Below, piece after piece: positions 9,267 to 23,531 of a DNA stretch of 39,114 nucleotides. Both the position numbers and the translations under genes were made by a program. The stretch comes from a virus. Location of the stretch: positions 1 through 39,114 of IMG/VR virus record IMGVR_UViG_3300043775_002032; one strand, given 5' to 3'. Positions within the stretch are counted from its first letter, which is position 1, and every line of letters begins with the position of its first letter. The notes under the pieces are model-generated. The model did no database searches. It worked only from the letters and a program-made list of their open reading frames with translations, and was not told the origin of the DNA.

Positions 9267-9998
9267 GTGGCTAAAAGCATGGACTTTCCAAATGTTTCAA
9301 AAAAGAAAAAATACTCTGAAGCAATACAAAAAACTCAAGAATCTAGTACCCAGTATATTGCTGTTCCTGGAATCCAAGGAGAAAAAGGTGAGACTGGTCA
9401 AAAAGGTGAAAAGGGTGATCAAGGTCCAGTAGGTCCAAAAGGTGATAAAGGCGATAGAGGTCCTGAAGGTCCACAGGGGCAGCGAGGGGAACCAGGAAAA
9501 GGTGCCGAAGGATATGACAGCGTATCTGGTCAATATCCAGGATGGGCATATTATAGTAATAAAGATTTAAGTGAAGTTAGACTTGGTCCAGAAAGAGGAG
9601 ATGATGGGTGGGTATCTATAAATTTTATAAAAGACGAAAAAACATCTAATGAAACATATATGCCAAAGGGTGCAAATACTTTATGGAATAATGAATCAAA
9701 AAACTTTAACTTTAAAACCTTAAAACTTGGAGCAAAGGTAGATGTAAGATATAATTTTACTCTAACTACCTATATGAATAATACTGAGGTTTGGGCTAGA
9801 CTATTTGTTCCAGATTACGACAACTCTCCAATAGGTTATGTTTCAACTCTTAAATACCAATATTCTTATGATATGTCTTATAACCAAACCATCTATGTAG
9901 ATGCTCAAAGAATTAGAACACTGGGTGGTGCAATTCAATTCAGGGCAGATAATGAAAGTAATATAGTTCTTAATGGTATCTATATTGCTGTTTGTTAA
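9267..9998 (+). CDS. Collagen-like tail fibre protein
   Basis: 243 aa. A Lys-rich N-terminal tail (MAKSMDFPNVSKKKKY) leads into 15 uninterrupted Gly-X-Y triplets (residues 35-79, including GPKGDKGDRG), which should form a trimeric collagen-type stalk. A beta-rich C-terminal domain of about 160 aa follows, plausibly the trimeric head that touches the receptor. The start is a GTG; an in-frame ATG follows four codons later. Phage collagen-like fibres are known. What is unusual is the battery of prolyl-hydroxylase-like genes downstream, for which this stalk is a natural substrate (inference). Confidence 0.8.
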   Translation: MAKSMDFPNVSKKKKYSEAIQKTQESSTQYIAVPGIQGEKGETGQKGEKGDQGPVGPKGDKGDRGPEGPQGQRGEPGKGAEGYDSVSGQYPGWAYYSNKDLSEVRLGPERGDDGWVSINFIKDEKTSNETYMPKGANTLWNNESKNFNFKTLKLGAKVDVRYNFTLTTYMNNTEVWARLFVPDYDNSPIGYVSTLKYQYSYDMSYNQTIYVDAQRIRTLGGAIQFRADNESNIVLNGIYIAVC

Positions 9999-10995: not shown

Positions 10996-11724
10996 ATGGC
11001 AGCAGAATCAATAGGTAATTTAGTACCGACCAAAATTCCAGGGTATGCAGATGCCGCTGATATACAAGCAGCACTACGTTTATATCACTATGGTGACTAT
11101 GCTTATACTGCGTCAAACTCTAATACGGCAAACCTTGTAAATCCATCTATTGCTTATACAATTAATAATCTACAAAGTCAAATAACTGCTATTGATGTTG
11201 GTGGAACATTAAAATTAACAGATTTTAATGCTAAAGGTGATTTACTTTCTGCTTCAGCAAATGACACGTTATCTGTTTTATCTGTTGGAAGTAATGGAAC
11301 AGTTTTAACTGCTAACTCTGCAGCGGCATCAGGTTTAGCCTGGACAACACCAGAAGTTACACTTATCAATAGCGCAACATTAACCAATAAAACATTAACT
11401 GCTCCAGTTATAAATCTTGCAATTAATCCTCAAACAACTGCTTATGAACTTGTTCTTGCCGATAATGGAAAAATGGTTGAAGTGTCAAGTGCTTCTGCAG
11501 TTACTTTATCAATTCCAACAAACGCCAATCAAGCATTTGCAACAGGTGCACAAATTACAATTTTACAAACAGGTACAGGACAGGTAACAATTGCAGCAAC
11601 TACTCCAGGAACTACAACTGTAAATGGATCTCCAGGGTTAAAATTAAGAGCACAATGGTCATCTGCCGTATGTATTAAACGTGCTACCGACTCTTGGGTT
11701 GTTCTTGGAGACTTAGTTGCATAA
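10996..11724 (+). CDS. Tail fibre protein with TNKTLTAP C-terminal domain
   Basis: 242 aa. An N-terminal segment with IPGYADAADIQAALRLYHYG may be an anchor. A GDLLSASANDTLSVLSVGSNG repeat-like turn and the linker ATLTNKTLTAP follow. The C-terminal domain (about 140-242) ends LRAQWSSAVCIKRATDSWVVLGDLVA. The same linker and C-terminal domain close the 792-aa fibre at 18029, evidence of domain exchange. Its stop overlaps the next start (TAATG). Confidence 0.7.
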   Translation: MAAESIGNLVPTKIPGYADAADIQAALRLYHYGDYAYTASNSNTANLVNPSIAYTINNLQSQITAIDVGGTLKLTDFNAKGDLLSASANDTLSVLSVGSNGTVLTANSAAASGLAWTTPEVTLINSATLTNKTLTAPVINLAINPQTTAYELVLADNGKMVEVSSASAVTLSIPTNANQAFATGAQITILQTGTGQVTIAATTPGTTTVNGSPGLKLRAQWSSAVCIKRATDSWVVLGDLVA

Positions 11725-12293
11725 TGTCAAGACTAGGACCCGTATCATCATCTGCTGGTCGTAAACCAGGAACACCAACAATTGGAACCGCAACTGCTGG
11801 TGATGGTCAAGCAACTGTAACTTTTACAACACCAAGTTATTTAGGTAAGCCTAGTTCTTCTTTAACCTATACCGTAGTTTCATCACCTAGTTCAATTTCT
11901 AATACAGGTTCTGGATCACCAATTATAGTTACTGGATTATCAAATGGAACAACATATACTTTTGCAGTTAAATTAAATAATACAGTTTTAGACTCAGACT
12001 TTTCATCATCAAGTAATAGTGTTACTCCAGTTTCTGCAGCCCCGCCATTTTTCCCACCATTCTTCCCACCATTCTTCCCAGGCTTTACGGGACCATTCTT
12101 CCCACCATTCTTCCCACCATTCTTCCCACCGTTCTTCCCACCGACCTTCACACCACCACCATCAGGATTTACTTGTACATCAACTGATATATCTTTAGCA
12201 ATATGTAATGGTGCTGGTTGTGATAATAGCGGATGTGCAACTGGAGGTTTATGCTTTAATAGTCCACAAAGTCACAGAGGACAAGGATGCTAA
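11724..12293 (+). CDS. Fibronectin-III protein with Phe/Pro tract
   Basis: 189 aa. Residues about 14-100 form one fibronectin type III domain (GTPTIGTATAGDGQATVTF ... GLSNGTTYTFAVKLNN). It is followed by seven FFP units separated by P or Gly-Thr-Gly, then a Cys-rich tail (about 145-189) with six Cys and a His near the end. I place the start at 11724 because TAATG couples it to the fibre gene; a longer frame would start inside that gene. The FFPP tract is encoded by near-identical 12-bp DNA repeats and may be a flexible or sticky adhesion surface, or a hydroxylation substrate (inference). Confidence 0.7.
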   Translation: MSRLGPVSSSAGRKPGTPTIGTATAGDGQATVTFTTPSYLGKPSSSLTYTVVSSPSSISNTGSGSPIIVTGLSNGTTYTFAVKLNNTVLDSDFSSSSNSVTPVSAAPPFFPPFFPPFFPGFTGPFFPPFFPPFFPPFFPPTFTPPPSGFTCTSTDISLAICNGAGCDNSGCATGGLCFNSPQSHRGQGC

Positions 12294-12312
12294 TAAATAT
12301 AAGGAGAAATAA

Positions 12313-12729
12313 ATGCTAAACGATGAAAAAGTGAGCGGACCAGGAGGAGATGCTCTTGTTTGGATAATTGATGAAGACTGCCTTTATGATCTTGCGGTGC
12401 TACCAGAATACGTATCTATGTTTACTGAGTATGATGAAATAGTAGATGTGTCTGAAAATTATGAAGATCATGATGGTATTACCATTAGATTTATCAAAGG
12501 AGATAATACTGAAATAGATTTTCAAACCTCTGAATATTTTGGTAGCATATTATTAAGTAATCCACAAATTAAAAGTTTATTAAAATATCCATACGGTCAG
12601 TATGTTGTGTCTCCAAATGCTAAATTTGATGGAGAAAAGTTTATTATTACAAATAGAGATATTTCTGGATATCCTGCATGGCATTTAAAAAATCCATATA
12701 TTCCAGAAGAATATCTAAACAGTTTATAA
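12313..12729 (+). CDS. 138-aa hypothetical acidic protein
   Basis: An acidic soluble protein with WIIDEDCLYDLAVL near the start, GITIRFIKGDNTEIDFQTSEYFG in the middle and ISGYPAWHLKNPYIPEEYL at the end. No known domain is recognised. An AAGGAG site precedes the ATG. The position between the FN3 protein and the DUF6171-like gene suggests an adsorption or accessory role only weakly. Confidence 0.6.
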   Translation: MLNDEKVSGPGGDALVWIIDEDCLYDLAVLPEYVSMFTEYDEIVDVSENYEDHDGITIRFIKGDNTEIDFQTSEYFGSILLSNPQIKSLLKYPYGQYVVSPNAKFDGEKFIITNRDISGYPAWHLKNPYIPEEYLNSL

Positions 12730-12747
12730 AAATAGTAGGGGGTAAGT

Positions 12748-12978
12748 GTGTCAAAATCAAAATGGCAACAATATAAAGAAAAAAATGGAGTAACTCCATT
12801 AGATCTTCTTAATCCAATGACAAAGCCAGCAAACAAAGAATTGGCAAAATCAAGATTAGATATTTGTTTAAGTTGTCCAGAGTTAATAAAAACCACAAAA
12901 CAATGCAAAAAATGTGGATGTTTTATGGTGGTTAAAGCACAACTAGAAGCGGCAAAATGTCCAATAGGGAAATGGTAA
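12748..12978 (+). CDS. DUF6171-like zinc protein, 76 aa
   Basis: Six cysteines (C40, C43, C53, C56, C58, C71) keep exactly the spacing of the protein at 7207-7404, again ending CPIGKW, after an extra N-terminal segment (SKWQQYKEKNGVTPLDLLNP). The start is a GTG with AGGGGG upstream. It lies at the end of a transcription unit closed by the terminator at 13019-13050. Function is unknown; a zinc-stabilised small adaptor is plausible. Confidence 0.75.
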   Translation: MSKSKWQQYKEKNGVTPLDLLNPMTKPANKELAKSRLDICLSCPELIKTTKQCKKCGCFMVVKAQLEAAKCPIGKW

Positions 12979-13018
12979 AATTTTGAAATAAAACTTAATT
13001 GATTATTATTAAATAAAA

Positions 13019-13050
13019 ACCCTCCAAGACAAAAGCAAGGAGGGTATTTT
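13019..13050. terminator. Bidirectional terminator between convergent genes
   Basis: ACCCTCC (13019-13025) pairs with GGAGGGT (13039-13045) around a 13-nt loop. ATTTTAATT follows on the plus strand and TTTTTATTT on the minus strand. It separates the DUF6171-like gene from the convergent lysozyme gene. Confidence 0.8.
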
Positions 13051-15385: not shown

Positions 15386-17509
15386 ATGGCAACCGTAACA
15401 AAAGACTTTAGAGTAAAAGCGGGACTGGTAGTTGAGGGATCAACTGCGACCGTTAATGGAAAGAACATAATCACAGCAGGCACAGTTGATGCTAAGGGTG
15501 ATTTAATTGTTGGTAGCGCAGACGATGCAGTTGCTCGTTTAGGAATTGGCACAAATGGTCAAGTACTTACAGCAAACTCATCTGCTACATATGGTGTTGA
15601 ATGGTCAGCCCCAGCAGCAGTTGGAGTATTTGATACACAGATTACATTTGAAGGTGCAACAGCAGACGCTTATGAGACAACACTTACAGTAGTTGACCCA
15701 ACAGCAGACCGTACAATTACACTTCCAAACGTAGATGGAACAGTTATTACTACTGGAGATACTGGCACAGTTTCAGCAACAATGCTTGCTTCAGATTCAG
15801 TAACCACTGTAAAGATTTTAAACGCTAACGTAACAGCAGCAAAACTTGCTTCAGATTCTGTAGAGACAGCAAAGATTGTTGATGCTAACGTAACTAACGC
15901 TAAACTTGCTACAGACTCAGTAACAACAGCAAAGATTACAGATGCTAACGTAACCGCTGCTAAACTTGCTGCAGATTCAGTAGAGACAGCAAAGATTAAA
16001 GACGCTAACGTAACAGAAGCAAAACTTGCATCAAACTCAGTTACAAATGCTAAGATTGCAGATAGTGCTGTAAATACAGCAGAGATTGCAGATGTTGCAG
16101 TAACCACAGCAAAGATTGCAGACCTAAACGTAACCACTGGCAAACTTGCAGATGGCGCAGTAACTACAGCAAAAATTACAGATGCTAACGTAACTGCTGG
16201 TAAACTTGCTGCAGATTCTGTAGAAACAGCAAAAATTGCAGACGGTGCAGTAACCTCAGCAAAGATTGCTAACGATACAATCGTAGATGCTGACATTAAC
16301 TCAGCAGCAGCAATTGCTCAGTCAAAGATTTCAGGGCTTACAACAGACCTTGCAGCCAAACTAGCACTTGCTGGCGGTACAATGACTGGCTCAATTGCAA
16401 TGGGCACAAACAAGATCACAGGTCTTGGTACACCAACTGACGGAACAGATGCAGCAACAAAGAATTATGTAGACTCAGCAGCACAGGGTATTGATTGGAA
16501 AGCATCAGTACGTGCAGCAACAACTGCAGCAGTAACACTCGCATCTGATCTAGAAAATGGAGATACTCTTGACGGAGTAACTCTTGCTACAGGTGACCGT
16601 GTTCTTGTTAAGAATCAGTCAACTGGTTCAGAAAATGGTATCTATGTAGTTAAGGCATCTGGTGCTCCAGATCGTTCAACTGATGCAGATTCAGGTGCTG
16701 AACTTACTTCAAATTTTGCGGTATTCGTAGAAGAAGGAACTGTAAACGCTGATCAAGGTTATACATTAACTAACAATGGTTCAATTACAATTGGCACCAC
16801 AGCGCTTACCTTTACTCAGTTTACTGGTTTGGGACAAATTGTTGCGGGTACAGGATTAGACAAGACTGGAAACACTCTTGATATTGATTCAACTGTAACA
16901 ACAAACGATGGAACTCAGACACTTACAAACAAGTCAATTAGTGGTTCAGCAAACACTATTACAAATGTTTCCCTAACTTCTAGCGTTACAGGAACACTTC
17001 CTGTTGCTAACGGTGGTACTGGAATAACATCACTTGGAGCAGGAATTGCAACATTCCTTGAAACTCCATCTTCTGCAAACCTTGCATCAGCATTAACCGA
17101 TGAAGCAGGCTCTGGAACAGTAGCATTTACTAATAGTCCAACCTTTACTACACCAACCCTTGGTGCAGCAGCAGCGACAAGCATTGCTCTTCCAGATGTT
17201 CTTCTTGGATCTGCTCTTGCTACCGCTTCAACTTCAGCAACAACAATTGATACATGGTCAGCAACTACATACTCAAGTGCTAAATATATCGTACAGATGA
17301 AAAAAGGTACTGATATTGAAGTAATTGAAGTTTTGGTTACTGTAGATGGATTAAATAACGTTTACTTAACAGAGTATGCAGATGTAATCAGCAATGCTGA
17401 ACTAGGAACAACTAACGCTGTTTACAGCGGTGGAAACGTTCTCCTTCAGGTAACTGGTGCATCAGCAGATACTGCTGTTAAAGTAAGCAAAACTTATATC
17501 GAAGCATAA
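15386..17509 (+). CDS. Long tail fibre with AKI/AKL repeats, 707 aa
   Basis: The N-terminal anchor MATVTKDFRVKAGLVVEG is shared with the 152-aa protein at 17529. One FEGATADAYETTL...GTVITTG unit of the 792-aa fibre type follows. About 16 tandem ten-residue units of the type DSVTTAKIxDANVTAAKLA (about residues 135-300) then form a likely beta-helical or triple-beta stalk. A KNYVDSAAQGIDWKASVRAATT domain, several TLTNK linkers and a C-terminal domain (about 612-707) related to 14923 complete it. AAGGAG precedes the ATG. It is probably a receptor-binding fibre. Confidence 0.8.
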   Translation: MATVTKDFRVKAGLVVEGSTATVNGKNIITAGTVDAKGDLIVGSADDAVARLGIGTNGQVLTANSSATYGVEWSAPAAVGVFDTQITFEGATADAYETTLTVVDPTADRTITLPNVDGTVITTGDTGTVSATMLASDSVTTVKILNANVTAAKLASDSVETAKIVDANVTNAKLATDSVTTAKITDANVTAAKLAADSVETAKIKDANVTEAKLASNSVTNAKIADSAVNTAEIADVAVTTAKIADLNVTTGKLADGAVTTAKITDANVTAGKLAADSVETAKIADGAVTSAKIANDTIVDADINSAAAIAQSKISGLTTDLAAKLALAGGTMTGSIAMGTNKITGLGTPTDGTDAATKNYVDSAAQGIDWKASVRAATTAAVTLASDLENGDTLDGVTLATGDRVLVKNQSTGSENGIYVVKASGAPDRSTDADSGAELTSNFAVFVEEGTVNADQGYTLTNNGSITIGTTALTFTQFTGLGQIVAGTGLDKTGNTLDIDSTVTTNDGTQTLTNKSISGSANTITNVSLTSSVTGTLPVANGGTGITSLGAGIATFLETPSSANLASALTDEAGSGTVAFTNSPTFTTPTLGAAAATSIALPDVLLGSALATASTSATTIDTWSATTYSSAKYIVQMKKGTDIEVIEVLVTVDGLNNVYLTEYADVISNAELGTTNAVYSGGNVLLQVTGASADTAVKVSKTYIEA

Positions 17510-18028: not shown

Positions 18029-20407
18029 ATGGCCACCAGAATGCAACAACGCAAAGGAACAGCAGCGCAATGGACAGCAGCAGATCCAATATTAAATGCT
18101 GGAGAAATTGGGTGGGAATCAGATACAAATAAATTTAAAATCGGTGATGGAACAAACCATTGGGACGATTTAACATACTTTTTAGACGCAACAGATACAG
18201 GATTTAACTCTGCAGATTATATTGCAGTAACACAAAAAGGTGTAGCCAATGGCGTTGCTGCACTTGATGCAAATGTCAATCTCTTAACAACAACTGGTGT
18301 TGTTTTTGAAGGCGCTACTGCCGACGCTCATGAAACCACACTTGTGGTAACAGATCCAACAGAAGATCGTACTATTACTCTTCCAAACGCAAATGGTACA
18401 GTTGTTTTGGCTGACGGTAGCGGAAATGTTACTGTATCAGGAAACCTAACTGTAAGTGGTACAACTACTACTATTAATAGCACAACAATTAATGCTACAA
18501 CAGGAATTGTTTTTGAAGGTCCTACAGCAAATGATTTTGAGACTACTTTAGCAATAGACGATCCAACAGAAGATCGTACAATTACCCTTCCAAACGCTAG
18601 TGGATATGTTGTTCTTCGTGATACAAATGAAACCCTTACAAACAAAACATTTACAAGCCCAACAATTTCAGGACTTACACTTTCAGATAGTTCAATTATT
18701 TTTGAAGGATCTACTGCAAATGATTTCGAAACCACTTTACAAGTAACAGACCCAACCGCTGATCGTGTAATCACTATTCCAAATGTTAATGGCACAATAA
18801 TTACAACTGGAAACCTTTCAGACATTACAGATATTGGTGTATTTAGTTCAACAATTAAAATGGAAGGTGCCACAGCGGATGATTATGAACTTACTCTTTC
18901 AGCAGGCAATCCAACAGAAGATCGTGAAATTACTTTCCCAAATGCTAGCGGTACAGTAATTACAACTGGAAATCTTTCAGATATTACCGCTACTGGAATA
19001 TTCTCTGGTCAAATTATACTTGAGGGTACAACACCAAATGAATTTGAAACTACTGTTCAAGCACAAGACCCAACTGCAGATCGTACCATTACTCTTCCAG
19101 ACGTTAGCGGTACAGTAATTACTACTGGAAACCTTTCAGATATTACTGCTGTTGGAGTACTTACTACATCAGTTGTTTTTGAGGGCAGTACTGCAGATGA
19201 TTATGAACTTACTCTTGGTGCAGGAAATCCAACCTCTGATATAACTATCTCATTTCCTGATGCAGCAGGAACACTTGTTGTCGATACTGCTACACAAACC
19301 CTTACTAACAAAACACTAACAAGTCCACTAGTAAGCAATCTACAAATTACCGATGGAAGCATTGTTCTTGAAGGTTCTACACCAAATGATTTTGAAACCA
19401 CATTAACTGTTACCGATCCAACTGCTGACAGAACCATTACAATTCCAGATGCTTCAGGAACAATTGCTTTTACAACTGATATTACAGTTAGCGCAACATC
19501 AACAAATACATTTTCTAACAAATCTATTTCTTTAGCAACAAATACTGTAAGCGGAACAACAGCCGAATTTAATACTGCCCTTTCAGATTCTAACTTTGTT
19601 ACCATTGGAGACACTGGAACAGTTACAAGCACAATGATTGCTGATGGAACTATTGTTGATGGAGATATTAATGCCTCTGCAGCAATTGCTCAGTCTAAAA
19701 TTTCTGGATTAACTACAGATCTTGCTGCCAAAGCACCTCTAGCAGATCCAACATTTACAGGAACAGTATCTGCAGCAAATTTAACACTTAGTGGAGATTT
19801 GACTGTAAGTGGAACTACAACAAACATTAACACAACTAATTTAGTTGTTGAAGACAAGAATATAGTCCTTGGAGATGTAACATCACCAACTGACACAACA
19901 GCAGATGGCGGTGGTATTACACTTAAAGGCGCAACTGATAAAACCTTTAACTGGGTTGACGCTACAGACGCTTGGACATCTTCCGAGCATATTAATTTGG
20001 CATCTGGAAAATCACTTTATCTAAACGGTACATTGTTAAAAGATGTAGCAGAAACCTTAACAAACAAAACTTTAACAGCACCTAAAATTAATTTAGGACT
20101 TAATGCTCAAACTGGAACAACATACACACTTGTTTTAGGTGATGCTGGAAAAGTTGTAACAGCCTCTAATGCTTCAGCAATTACAGTTACTGTTCCACCA
20201 TCAGGTGATGTTGCTTACGCAACTGGATCACAGATAACTGTTCTTCAAAAAGGTGCAGGCCAAGTTACTTTTGCACAAGGCTCTGGAGTTACTATTAGAA
20301 GCACTGGCGCAACCGCTACTGCTCCAAAACTTCGTGCTCAGTATTCTTCAGCAACATGCGTATATGAAGGTTCAGATGTTTGGTACGTTGTAGGAGATAT
20401 TAGTTAG
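18029..20407 (+). CDS. Long tail fibre with Mtd-N-like head and seven repeats, 792 aa
   Basis: The N-terminal 55 residues (MQQRKGTAAQWTAADPILNAGEIGW...FKIGDG...W) match the major-tropism-determinant N-terminal module, which attaches fibres to the tail. Seven imperfect units of about 50 residues follow, each of the form FEGSTADDYETTL...DPTADRTITLPNASGTV. After them come a QSKISGLTTDLAAK segment and a TLTNKTLTAP linker. The terminal domain is shared with the protein at 10996. It is probably a major receptor-binding fibre. No variable C-type lectin domain is seen. Confidence 0.8.
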   Translation: MATRMQQRKGTAAQWTAADPILNAGEIGWESDTNKFKIGDGTNHWDDLTYFLDATDTGFNSADYIAVTQKGVANGVAALDANVNLLTTTGVVFEGATADAHETTLVVTDPTEDRTITLPNANGTVVLADGSGNVTVSGNLTVSGTTTTINSTTINATTGIVFEGPTANDFETTLAIDDPTEDRTITLPNASGYVVLRDTNETLTNKTFTSPTISGLTLSDSSIIFEGSTANDFETTLQVTDPTADRVITIPNVNGTIITTGNLSDITDIGVFSSTIKMEGATADDYELTLSAGNPTEDREITFPNASGTVITTGNLSDITATGIFSGQIILEGTTPNEFETTVQAQDPTADRTITLPDVSGTVITTGNLSDITAVGVLTTSVVFEGSTADDYELTLGAGNPTSDITISFPDAAGTLVVDTATQTLTNKTLTSPLVSNLQITDGSIVLEGSTPNDFETTLTVTDPTADRTITIPDASGTIAFTTDITVSATSTNTFSNKSISLATNTVSGTTAEFNTALSDSNFVTIGDTGTVTSTMIADGTIVDGDINASAAIAQSKISGLTTDLAAKAPLADPTFTGTVSAANLTLSGDLTVSGTTTNINTTNLVVEDKNIVLGDVTSPTDTTADGGGITLKGATDKTFNWVDATDAWTSSEHINLASGKSLYLNGTLLKDVAETLTNKTLTAPKINLGLNAQTGTTYTLVLGDAGKVVTASNASAITVTVPPSGDVAYATGSQITVLQKGAGQVTFAQGSGVTIRSTGATATAPKLRAQYSSATCVYEGSDVWYVVGDIS

Positions 20408-20436
20408 TTTAATTAAAGAACGGAAAGGGTAGGTTA

Positions 20437-21246
20437 ATGGCAACAGATATTCTGGGTACCATTAGTTCCTCTGCGAAGGGTGCTCCTGGCATCCCAACAA
20501 TTGGAACAGCAACTGATGTGGGAACATCTCGTGCATTTAACAATGGTGCTGCCACCGTAACCTTTACCGAAGGAGCAGGAGCACCTGCAACATCTTTTAC
20601 AGTTACATCATCACCAGGAGATTACACAGCAACTGGAGCATCATCTCCAATAACTGTTGAAGGATTACAATCTGATACAGCATATACATTTACCGTTAAA
20701 GGAAATAACTTATCAGGTTCATCACTTGATTCACCTGCTTCTAACTCTATTACAGCAACTACAGTACCAGCAACACCTTCTGCACCAACTGTAACAACTT
20801 CAGCGTTAAGTGATGCTGTTTCTTGGACAGCCCCTGCAACTGGTGGCAAAGCAATTACTGGATATACTTGGGCATCTTCTGATGGAAAAGGCGCTACAGT
20901 AGGTTCAGGAACAACAAGTGTTAATGTTACTCAAGAAGCAAATACTTCACAAACTTATACAGTTTATGCAACTAACGATAATGGTAACTCAGGAACCTCA
21001 AATGCATCAAGCAGTGTAACTACCCCTCCATTCTTTCCACCATTCTTTCCACCATTCTTTCCATTTTTCCCACCATTCTTCCCATTCTTCCCGCCATTTT
21101 TCCCATTTTTCCCACCATTCTTCCCGTTCTTCCCGTTCTTCCCACCGTTCTTCCCGTTCTTCCCACCGTTCTTCCCGTTCTTCCCACCATTCTTCCCGTT
21201 CTTCCCACCATTCTTCCCAGCCTTTGCTGGATTTAGATATCAATAA
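20437..21246 (+). CDS. Two-FN3 protein with long Phe/Pro tract, 269 aa
   Basis: Two fibronectin type III domains (about 15-107 and 108-195) are followed by about 18 FFP units in PPFFPFFPP order (about 198-260) and a short end FAGFRYQ. The tract is about 65 residues of only Phe and Pro, encoded by near-identical 9- and 12-bp DNA repeats prone to slippage. It resembles the C-terminal tract of the protein at 11724. A surface-adhesion role is likely for the FN3 part. The tract ends just before the terminator and the hydroxylase array, so the prolines are possible substrates (inference). Confidence 0.75.
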   Translation: MATDILGTISSSAKGAPGIPTIGTATDVGTSRAFNNGAATVTFTEGAGAPATSFTVTSSPGDYTATGASSPITVEGLQSDTAYTFTVKGNNLSGSSLDSPASNSITATTVPATPSAPTVTTSALSDAVSWTAPATGGKAITGYTWASSDGKGATVGSGTTSVNVTQEANTSQTYTVYATNDNGNSGTSNASSSVTTPPFFPPFFPPFFPFFPPFFPFFPPFFPFFPPFFPFFPFFPPFFPFFPPFFPFFPPFFPFFPPFFPAFAGFRYQ

Positions 21247-21257
21247 TATATAAATAA

Positions 21258-21306
21258 AAATATAGTAAGGAATAATTAAATAAAATAAATATTCCTTACT
21301 ATATTT
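21258..21306 (+). terminator. 17-bp perfect hairpin ending the tail-fibre unit
   Basis: AAATATAGTAAGGAATA (21258-21274) pairs perfectly with the segment 21290-21306 across a 15-nt A/T loop. The stem is AT-rich and symmetrical, so it may work in both directions. It separates the fibre genes from the oxygenase operon. Confidence 0.7.
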
Positions 21307-21321
21307 ACTAACATTGATTTG

Positions 21322-21330
21322 TGATACAAT
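21322..21330 (+). promoter_or_regulatory. Extended -10 promoter TGa-TACAAT for the oxygenase operon
   Basis: TGATACAAT gives an RNA start near 21337 and a leader of about 20 nt before the ATG at 21358. Confidence 0.55.
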
Positions 21331-21357
21331 ATAATAAAAGGGAATAGGAAATTTTAT

Positions 21358-22071
21358 ATGATATATGAAGATGAAAACCAAATACCATGGTTCACTAAAG
21401 ACAGATCAGAAACATCAACAAATAGATATTCAACAAAAACTATAGGAGATAATATTATAGTTGAAAATCCACAACTAGGTATAAATTTATATAAAAATGT
21501 ATTTTCAAAAGAAGATTCTGAAAGATATATAAAAACACTTGAGTCTAATTTAAGTAATGGCGGTAAATATAAATGGTCAGATGCAACAGTTACAAACTCA
21601 GAAAAACCAATTAAAAAAGCAAGAGATTGTGTTGATTTTAAATATAAACAAGAAAATTTAGGTCCAAGAGATCAGCATAATGCCGAACTTATAGATTTAC
21701 ATGAAGAAATATATCAAAAATTAAAATTTTGTGTTGATGATTATGCAAGATATTGGGGAATTAATGTAATTTATTATGAGGCATTTAATTTTGTAAAATA
21801 TGAGGGAGAGGGAAAGCATTTTAATATTCACGCTGACCACGGACCAGCATATAATTGTACAGTTTCTGCCGTAATATATATTAATGATGATTACGAAGGT
21901 GGAGAAATTAGATTCCCTAGATTTAATAATTATACTCACACTCCAAAAGTAGGAGATATTTTACTTTGTCCATCTAATTACATCTATGAGCATGCTTCTT
22001 TGCCAATGAAAAATGGGGTAAAATACTGTGTTGTAGTAATGACAGATATTAATGAATTAGGACACAAATAG
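21358..22071 (+). CDS. 2OG-Fe(II) dioxygenase 1, prolyl-4-hydroxylase type
   Basis: 237 aa. The iron ligands are H158 and D160 (NIHADHG) and H212 (YEHASLP). K222 (GVKYCVV) should bind 2-oxoglutarate. The strand motif YINDDYEGGEIRFP (about 174-187) and PKVGDILLCPS (196-206) are classic for P4H-type enzymes. Such enzymes couple 2-oxoglutarate decarboxylation to hydroxylation of a peptide or free amino acid. It is most similar in layout to oxygenase 2 (22848), sharing RDCVDFK and NCTVS blocks. First gene of the array; its stop overlaps the next start. Confidence 0.85.
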   Translation: MIYEDENQIPWFTKDRSETSTNRYSTKTIGDNIIVENPQLGINLYKNVFSKEDSERYIKTLESNLSNGGKYKWSDATVTNSEKPIKKARDCVDFKYKQENLGPRDQHNAELIDLHEEIYQKLKFCVDDYARYWGINVIYYEAFNFVKYEGEGKHFNIHADHGPAYNCTVSAVIYINDDYEGGEIRFPRFNNYTHTPKVGDILLCPSNYIYEHASLPMKNGVKYCVVVMTDINELGHK

Positions 22072-22847: not shown

Positions 22848-23531
22848 ATGCAAACATGGACAGAAAAAGAAAGTCTTGGACAAGGAATAACTTGTTATCG
22901 TGGAGTAATAAAAAAAGAATTTGATGTAATTAATAGGCTTGAAAGCACTTTAGGTTCTGTTGCTGGGTATGGAGAATTATCATCAGAGGGAAAAGCATAC
23001 CACTGGATGCCAGCATATGTAGGATATCAACAATTAATGCCTGACTATAGAGATTGTGTAGATTTTAAATTTAAAAAAACTGATATAGAACAAGATAAAA
23101 GTGAAGATTCATTAAAACTGCAGGAACTTTGGCAAGACGTTTACGATGCTCAGGCAGCAGCCGTTGAAGACTATAGACGAGATTACAATATTATGAAATT
23201 AAAATATTGGGAGGCTTTTAATTTTATTAAATATGGTCCAAAACAACACTTTAAAGAGCATCATGATCATGGGTATTCTTATAATTGCACAGTTTCTTTA
23301 GTTGCATATGTTAATGATGACTACGATGGCGGAGAGTTATATTTTAGATTGCAAAATTTAAATATTAAACCAAAGGCTGGAGATCTTTATATATTCCCTT
23401 CTAATTTTATGTATCCACATCAAGCAATGCCCGTTCACTCTGGAACAAAATATTCTATTGTAACAATGTTAGACTACAGCAAAAAATATCATACACCAGA
23501 CATGTATGATCCAAAATGGGATAATGAATAA
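22848..23531 (+). CDS. 2OG-Fe(II) dioxygenase 2, prolyl-4-hydroxylase type
   Basis: 227 aa. Iron ligands H138 and D140 (KEHHDHG) and H191 (YPHQAMPV); K201 (GTKYSIV) for 2-oxoglutarate. VNDDYDGGELYF (155-166) and KPKAGDLYIFPS (174-185) fit the double-stranded beta-helix. It shares RDCVDFK (68-74) and EAFNF (122-126) with oxygenase 1, so these are closest paralogues. A GGGGAA ribosome site precedes the ATG. The stop overlaps the next ATG (TAATG). Confidence 0.85.
   Translation: MQTWTEKESLGQGITCYRGVIKKEFDVINRLESTLGSVAGYGELSSEGKAYHWMPAYVGYQQLMPDYRDCVDFKFKKTDIEQDKSEDSLKLQELWQDVYDAQAAAVEDYRRDYNIMKLKYWEAFNFIKYGPKQHFKEHHDHGYSYNCTVSLVAYVNDDYDGGELYFRLQNLNIKPKAGDLYIFPSNFMYPHQAMPVHSGTKYSIVTMLDYSKKYHTPDMYDPKWDNE

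Follow-up and report, generated by a model that had tools for sequence, protein, structure and literature searches.

What is the function of some 65 consecutive phenylalanine and proline residues at the end of a phage protein? This question is raised by the gene at positions 20437–21246 (plus strand) of a 39,114-base viral record with a G+C content of 34.9%, which was analysed over its full length and is referred to here as the window. The gene encodes a protein of 269 amino acids that starts with an N-terminal leader (MATDILGTISSSAKGA, 20437–20484), followed by two FN3/PKD-like β-sandwich domains (20485–21024), the F/P tract (residues 197–261; 21025–21219) and the short C-terminal tail AFAGFRYQ (21220–21243), which is replaced by other tails in the related loci L132, L133, L134, L135 and L137. 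An initial sequence-only reading had described about 65 residues of pure Phe/Pro in roughly 18 units behind two FN3 domains, and both points were confirmed. The tract comprises 36 Phe and 29 Pro, which form 18 units, nine of the FFPP and nine of the FFP type, with PP in front; the units differ in synonymous codons only, and charged residues as well as Gly are entirely missing. Pfam matches to fn3 (PF00041; E 1.1e-8, 35.6 bits versus a gathering cut-off of 25) and PKD_6 cover the preceding part. In an AlphaFold model (one chain, 28 sequences) the FN3 domains are folded with pLDDT values mostly above 90, residues 1–12 of the leader have low pLDDT, and the tract is unstructured, with pLDDT values of 50–57 and without secondary structure.

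Chance or a low-complexity artefact as origin of the tract is ruled out, since the longest run composed of F and P only reached 6 residues, in any frame, in 60 second-order Markov shuffles of the window, as compared to the 65 residues observed. The same tract also occurs in L129 and L130, two further records of this phage obtained independently (99.96% identity over 9.7 kb and 99.99% over 11 kb, respectively), and is identical base for base in L131; it therefore does not represent a one-off assembly error. Among the matches listed, the tract lies at or near the contig end in 21 of 120 contigs, and one record of the window phage, 90.9 kb long, starts within the second F/P tract described below; short-read assemblies may thus misjudge tract length, and collapse is possible. 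Two antisense open reading frames overlap the tract (21007–21381 and 21020–21211). They were set aside, since the sense amino acids are conserved despite codon drift, which points to the sense frame as the coding one.

The view that no domain of this composition had been described was borne out. No match covering the tract was found in Pfam, PHROGs or the PDB sequences; in the literature, FFPPFFP did not occur in the papers searched, and FFPP combined with tail and phage gave only unrelated work among the matches listed. The sole composition-level match in the PDB, the aromatic-proline repeats of the RNA polymerase II CTD (heptad YSPTSPS), has no homology to the tract. To our knowledge, the nearest natural composition is that of prophenin and PR-39, cathelicidins among the Pro/Phe-rich host-defence peptides. 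These are cationic and contain Arg, whereas the window tract is uncharged and thus lacks the cationic character of Pro/Phe-rich antimicrobial peptides. A tblastn search of cultured phages with the proteins of the window, L160, L221 and L041 revealed no homologue, apart from one weak match at the FN3 level (E 6e-3); since BLAST masks the tract, this search tests the flanking domains only.

Among uncultured phages, in contrast to cellular genomes, the tract is widespread. Searching for FFPPFFPPFFP in any codon yielded at least 120 stretches in viral contigs, as compared to 17 matches in bacterial and archaeal genomes totalling 257 billion bases. The latter are mostly single short runs in frames unlike genes; four of them (L210, L214, L221, L222) look like phage, and only phage-like ones are clearly coding. 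A cellular origin of the tract was rejected on these grounds. One cultured bacterium, Marinithermofilum abyssi (L219), has a 108-residue reading frame on the minus strand ending ...NIFFPPFFPPFFPIFPFFGPPFFGPFWW, a small protein that is apparently independent of phages. More than 100 uncultured phages carry the tract. In total, 164 distinct tracts were gathered, with a median length of 59 and a maximum of 179 residues; a nearly pure Phe/Pro peptide of this size would be an unusual material. The repeat unit is xFP or xFPP, and F at position 2 is almost without exception. Position 1 is mostly aromatic: about nine out of ten units have F there, the others Y, S, H, W or D.

The genomic position of the tract gene suggests where its product might act. 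Adjoining its 5′ end is a fibre gene (18029–20407, plus strand; 792 amino acids), the product of which has an Mtd_N N-terminus (Pfam, 3e-11), a PHROG match to tail fiber and a C-terminal domain (20102–20404) ending in ...PKLRAQYSSATCVYEGSDVWYVVGDIS. The same arrangement occurs a second time in the window, at a gene that had escaped the sequence-only reading. Located at 11724–12293 (plus strand), this gene encodes a protein of 189 amino acids composed of a leader, one FN3-like domain (fn3 with E=0.0035 and 17.9 bits, below the Pfam cut-off), an F/P tract interrupted by GFTG (12042–12143), which is shorter than the 65-residue tract, and a Cys-rich tip (TFTPPPSGFTCTST...RGQGC; 12144–12290). Directly upstream lies another fibre gene (10996–11724, plus strand), and the C-terminal domains of both fibres are related. 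In 81 of 107 distinct tract loci the upstream gene ends in this one fibre C-terminal domain, with the consensus ILQTGAGQVTIA..GVT.NATPGLKLRAQWSSATL.KRA.DTWVV.GDL.A, and the distance between fibre and tract gene mostly ranges from a 1-bp overlap to 35 bp. This conserved position agrees with the earlier proposal of a receptor-end tail protein.

A separate receptor-recognising fibre-tip protein is known from T2-type phages, S16 and PP01, where the constant N-terminal part of gp38 docks on the fibre and a glycine-rich PGII repeat element is found beside hypervariable receptor loops (PMC12892980). Like gp38, the tip gene of the window is situated directly downstream of a fibre gene (the fibre role being assigned by PHROG similarity). 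Unlike gp38, its product combines FN3/Ig-like domains with F/P or, in relatives, other Pro-rich repeats and has no glycine-rich PGII sandwich. No sequence relation to gp38 was found, and the PHROGs gave no gp38-type match. Conserved leader and variable end are compatible with a gp38-like logic of N-terminal docking and distal receptor binding; the leader, which aligns with GxKSxASNDFLEP in relatives, might be the docking peptide for the upstream fibre. A second parallel is offered by the adhesion devices of streptococcal phages, in which collagen-like linkers of variable length follow an Ig-like domain and space exchangeable binding modules, the latter being CBMs in Tal proteins (PMC9437275). 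The order of Ig-like domain, repeat linker of variable length and exchangeable end is shared with the window protein, whereas Gly at every third position, as in the Gly-X-Y repeat of collagen (PF01391), is missing from the FFP/FFPP tract.

Cultured phages share the fibre domain. The second window fibre matches 247 cultured-phage records, mainly of Gordonia phages, in its C-terminal part. Four Gordonia phages were inspected at this locus. In each of them the following gene overlaps the end of the fibre gene, and its product, a minor tail or hypothetical protein (RiverRaider 41, JKSyngboy gp38, Phinally gp39 and Powerball 27), has the same position relative to the fibre domain and a short basic leader, but differs from the window tip protein in that it contains no F/P or Pro-rich tract. 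The portal of the window phage is 45% identical to that of the Streptomyces phage Yaboi group, and its reductase is 60% identical to those of Actinomycetia phage DSL-LC01 and Mycobacterium phage Gaia. Since both proteins relate to actinobacteriophages, the host probably belongs to the Actinobacteria. The freshwater actinophage DSL-LC01, close by its reductase gene, is devoid of such a tract.

Comparison of close orthologues revealed that the tract itself is replaceable. For the second tip protein, orthologues with FN3 domains of 84–91% identity were found in L232, L234, L237, L238, L239, L240 and L241. In place of FFPP, these carry PPPF (L232, L240), PPPAT (L234), PPPIIAT (L237) or PAPTPTPP (L241), and L238 has another FFP pattern in front of a tip that is almost the window's own. 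At the DNA level, homology with these relatives amounts to 78–89% over about 3 kb. It stops at the tract start or inside the tract, at 12030 (L234, L237), 12062 (L241) or 12109 (L239), and returns at 12763–13048 in downstream genes. As homology in the clearest cases ends just before the tract and comes back in a later gene (at 12763–12772 for L234 and L237), stalk and tip are exchanged as a cassette, which spans 12031–12752 (plus strand) in the window. At the first locus, the tail behind the tract varies between relatives of the window clade while the neighbouring genes can still be aligned, and more distant relatives (about 54–64% identical in the aligned part) have FGFSPF or YSFVP repeats in the corresponding place. 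In order to sample the position independently of the tract, 66 distinct loci were picked by the upstream fibre domain, and the next gene region was scored in three frames. A repeat stalk of some sort was present in 50 of the 66: xFP(P) in 27, FxPF/FVPY in 8, P/T/I/A-rich repeats in 7, xFFxPP in 4, PPPF in 3 and YN/FN in one; the other 16 had none of these types. In L244 the gene behind the fibre domain contains YYNYYNFYNFYN repeats (YYNYYNF) without proline where FFPP would stand, and FGFSPF is proline-poor as well, so that a proline-rich stalk is not universal.

FFPP is thus probably one of several alleles of a stalk that is mostly rich in proline and can be swapped in a fibre-tip adhesin. 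According to this model, the tract would be the stalk, or spacer, in a small protein at the receptor end, the gene of which directly follows the tail-fibre gene. In its constant zone, the leader would dock on the fibre end and the Ig-like/FN3 domain or domains form a neck. The low-complexity, mostly proline-rich repeat would follow as an extended, non-globular stalk, presumably polyproline-II-like and acting as a spacer more than a binder. The hypervariable end would be a Cys-rich knob, an S74 or Hint processing domain or just a few residues. Stalk and end would move between phages as one cassette with its left boundary at the FN3/tract junction, and whole repeat units would sometimes be gained or lost in frame, so that reach and tip could be altered with the rest of the fibre untouched. 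An architecture of constant fibre and Ig-like part with swappable stalk-plus-tip appears to be common in uncultured phages and undescribed so far.

Within the window lineage the tract is conserved. Its first 61 residues are identical in L132, L133 and L134 despite 17, 6 and 13 silent differences, respectively, and 55 residues are identical in L098 with 15 silent differences. Each comparison halts where the first amino acid differs, and what is counted are the consecutive silent changes up to that point; neutrality would yield 17 in a row with a probability of about 3e-12, the relatives not being mutually independent. Judged by these codon comparisons, the tract amino acids are under purifying selection, and homogenisation between units could add to the silent-change pattern. 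Since the pattern, including the order of three- and four-residue units, is kept despite silent drift, tract length is stable in this lineage.

The change of repeat number by slippage that had been envisaged is therefore not seen over the 55–61 compared residues of the window lineage; elsewhere, length differences do occur, for which slippage or collapse during assembly may be responsible. Tract length is equal in the window, L129, L130 and L131, whereas variants occur in other clades. The near-identical loci L044 and L053, which have a common tail, are set apart by a single clean 45-bp block in frame, and L100 and L183, likewise near-identical and with a common tail, by one of 69 bp, with zero other mismatches in the compared tract and tail of either pair. 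Units measure 9 and 12 bp and length differences are multiples of 3, so that the frame is retained and no phase-variable frame switch results. Length variants of this kind, together with cassette boundaries at the tract start and the tails swapped 3′ of the tract, would fit a contingency locus, in which the repeat would persist for its use in recombination or slippage at the DNA level and the protein would be incidental. A further point in its favour is the mosaic L131, which over window positions 20047–22056 agrees with L133 without a mismatch as far as about 20.9 kb, from there on agrees equally fully with the window, and is either a recombinant phage or a chimeric assembly. However, the switch point in L131 lies in the FN3 region before the tract, the exchanges join unrelated repeat DNAs, and the codons of the tract drift while its amino acids do not. 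Moreover, Phe codons in the tracts are 86% TTC versus 31% in the rest of those genes (higher in 153 of 164 loci) and thereby shifted away from slippage-favouring T-runs; in the window, TTC accounts for 30 of 36 tract Phe codons but for 20 of 189 in a set of nine other genes or parts of genes. This excess might mean that T-runs are avoided or that the better-read codon is preferred. A contingency locus is accordingly considered very improbable.

While a stalk is the favoured role, what follows the tract is not always a tip. When sorted by simple sequence patterns, the 164 tracts are followed by short tails (44), Cys-rich mini tips (35), FK (30), Hint-like domains (22), S74-like starts (8) or other sequences (25). 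Peptidase_S74 (PF13884) exceeds the Pfam cut-off in L051 and in the open reading frame behind the tract gene of L133; matches to Hint_2 (PF13403) in L171 and L092 are weak and below the cut-off. For about 74 of the 164 tracts, including that of the window protein, the C-terminus is at most 14 residues away, and 30 of these end in ...FK. With little or nothing behind it, the tract is no spacer for a folded tip there; it may be the terminal contact, the tip may be lost, or the tip may come from a different protein. S74 and Hint domains are as a rule removed by self-cleavage. The tract would then become the mature end in those variants as well, which makes an aromatic binding role a live rival: the F/P tract would be a functional C-terminus that binds membrane lipid or a hydrophobic envelope polymer. 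In line with this, position 2 of the unit is nearly always F and position 1 mostly aromatic, non-FFPP relatives often retain aromatic repeats (FGFSP, YSFVP, YYNF), and the exclusive use of Phe is costly for a plain spacer, yet kept under strong selection. Against an adhesive end, the repeats of close orthologues contain few or no aromatics (PPPAT, PPPIIAT, PAPTPTPP), and the apparently actinobacterial hosts have no outer membrane for insertion. Aromatics are thus non-essential at this position, and the sticky aromatic brush or envelope contact of the sequence-only reading, like Phe-specific adhesion in general, is possible but not required; an adhesive end appears rather unlikely overall.

The near invariance of F at position 2 and the exact pattern kept under silent drift might alternatively reflect an ordered aromatic-proline rod, a trimeric fibre fold unseen before, in which three chains pack their Phe side chains against each other. 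S74 trimerisation chaperone domains behind the tract in several members would suit such a rod. Spacings of three and four residues are mixed, however, with the neighbours 44, 43, 34 and 33 all common, so that no single face arises in a polyproline-II helix or β-strand; a regular face of either type was set aside, and the AlphaFold monomer model is unstructured. An ordered rod is regarded as unlikely. More broadly, we only tentatively entertain that (xFP/xFPP)n is a new phage-fibre element, be it a trimeric rod of aromatic residues and proline or a hydrophobic end in contact with the host, and that uncultured aquatic, probably actinobacterial phages employ it widely at their receptor-binding tips. 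Under the stalk model, the interchangeable repeats, with FFPP as the strangest, offer a natural test of stalk chemistry versus length alone. Since host choice of phages is decided by tail-tip proteins, the stalk-plus-tip layout could moreover serve as a recognisable signature of receptor-binding genes in metagenomic phages.

Several further features were observed around the tracts. In L133 (2850–4012), L098, L137, L141, L145/L069 and L076, and hence across several divergent phages, S74 is apparently split over two open reading frames: a YSSxRFK start ends the tract protein, and the remaining 93 or so amino acids form a separate downstream frame, in another frame or after stops, which matches PF13884 in L133. 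Hint/intein-like domains directly follow the F/P tract in L048, L147, L171, L191, L015, L092 and L097; several of them end in HNK, and they might cleave themselves off or link the tract end covalently. In the window, the same tail module contains a collagen-like fibre gene (9267–9998, PF01391 match), and tandem repeats are located inside two large fibre genes (15785–16244 and 18752–19233, with 60/120-bp and 159-bp units). Downstream of the tip gene, two related genes (21358–22071 and 22848–23531) encode HxD...H-like motifs suggestive of 2-oxoglutarate/Fe(II) oxygenases, and many tract genes have genes of a similar kind downstream of them.
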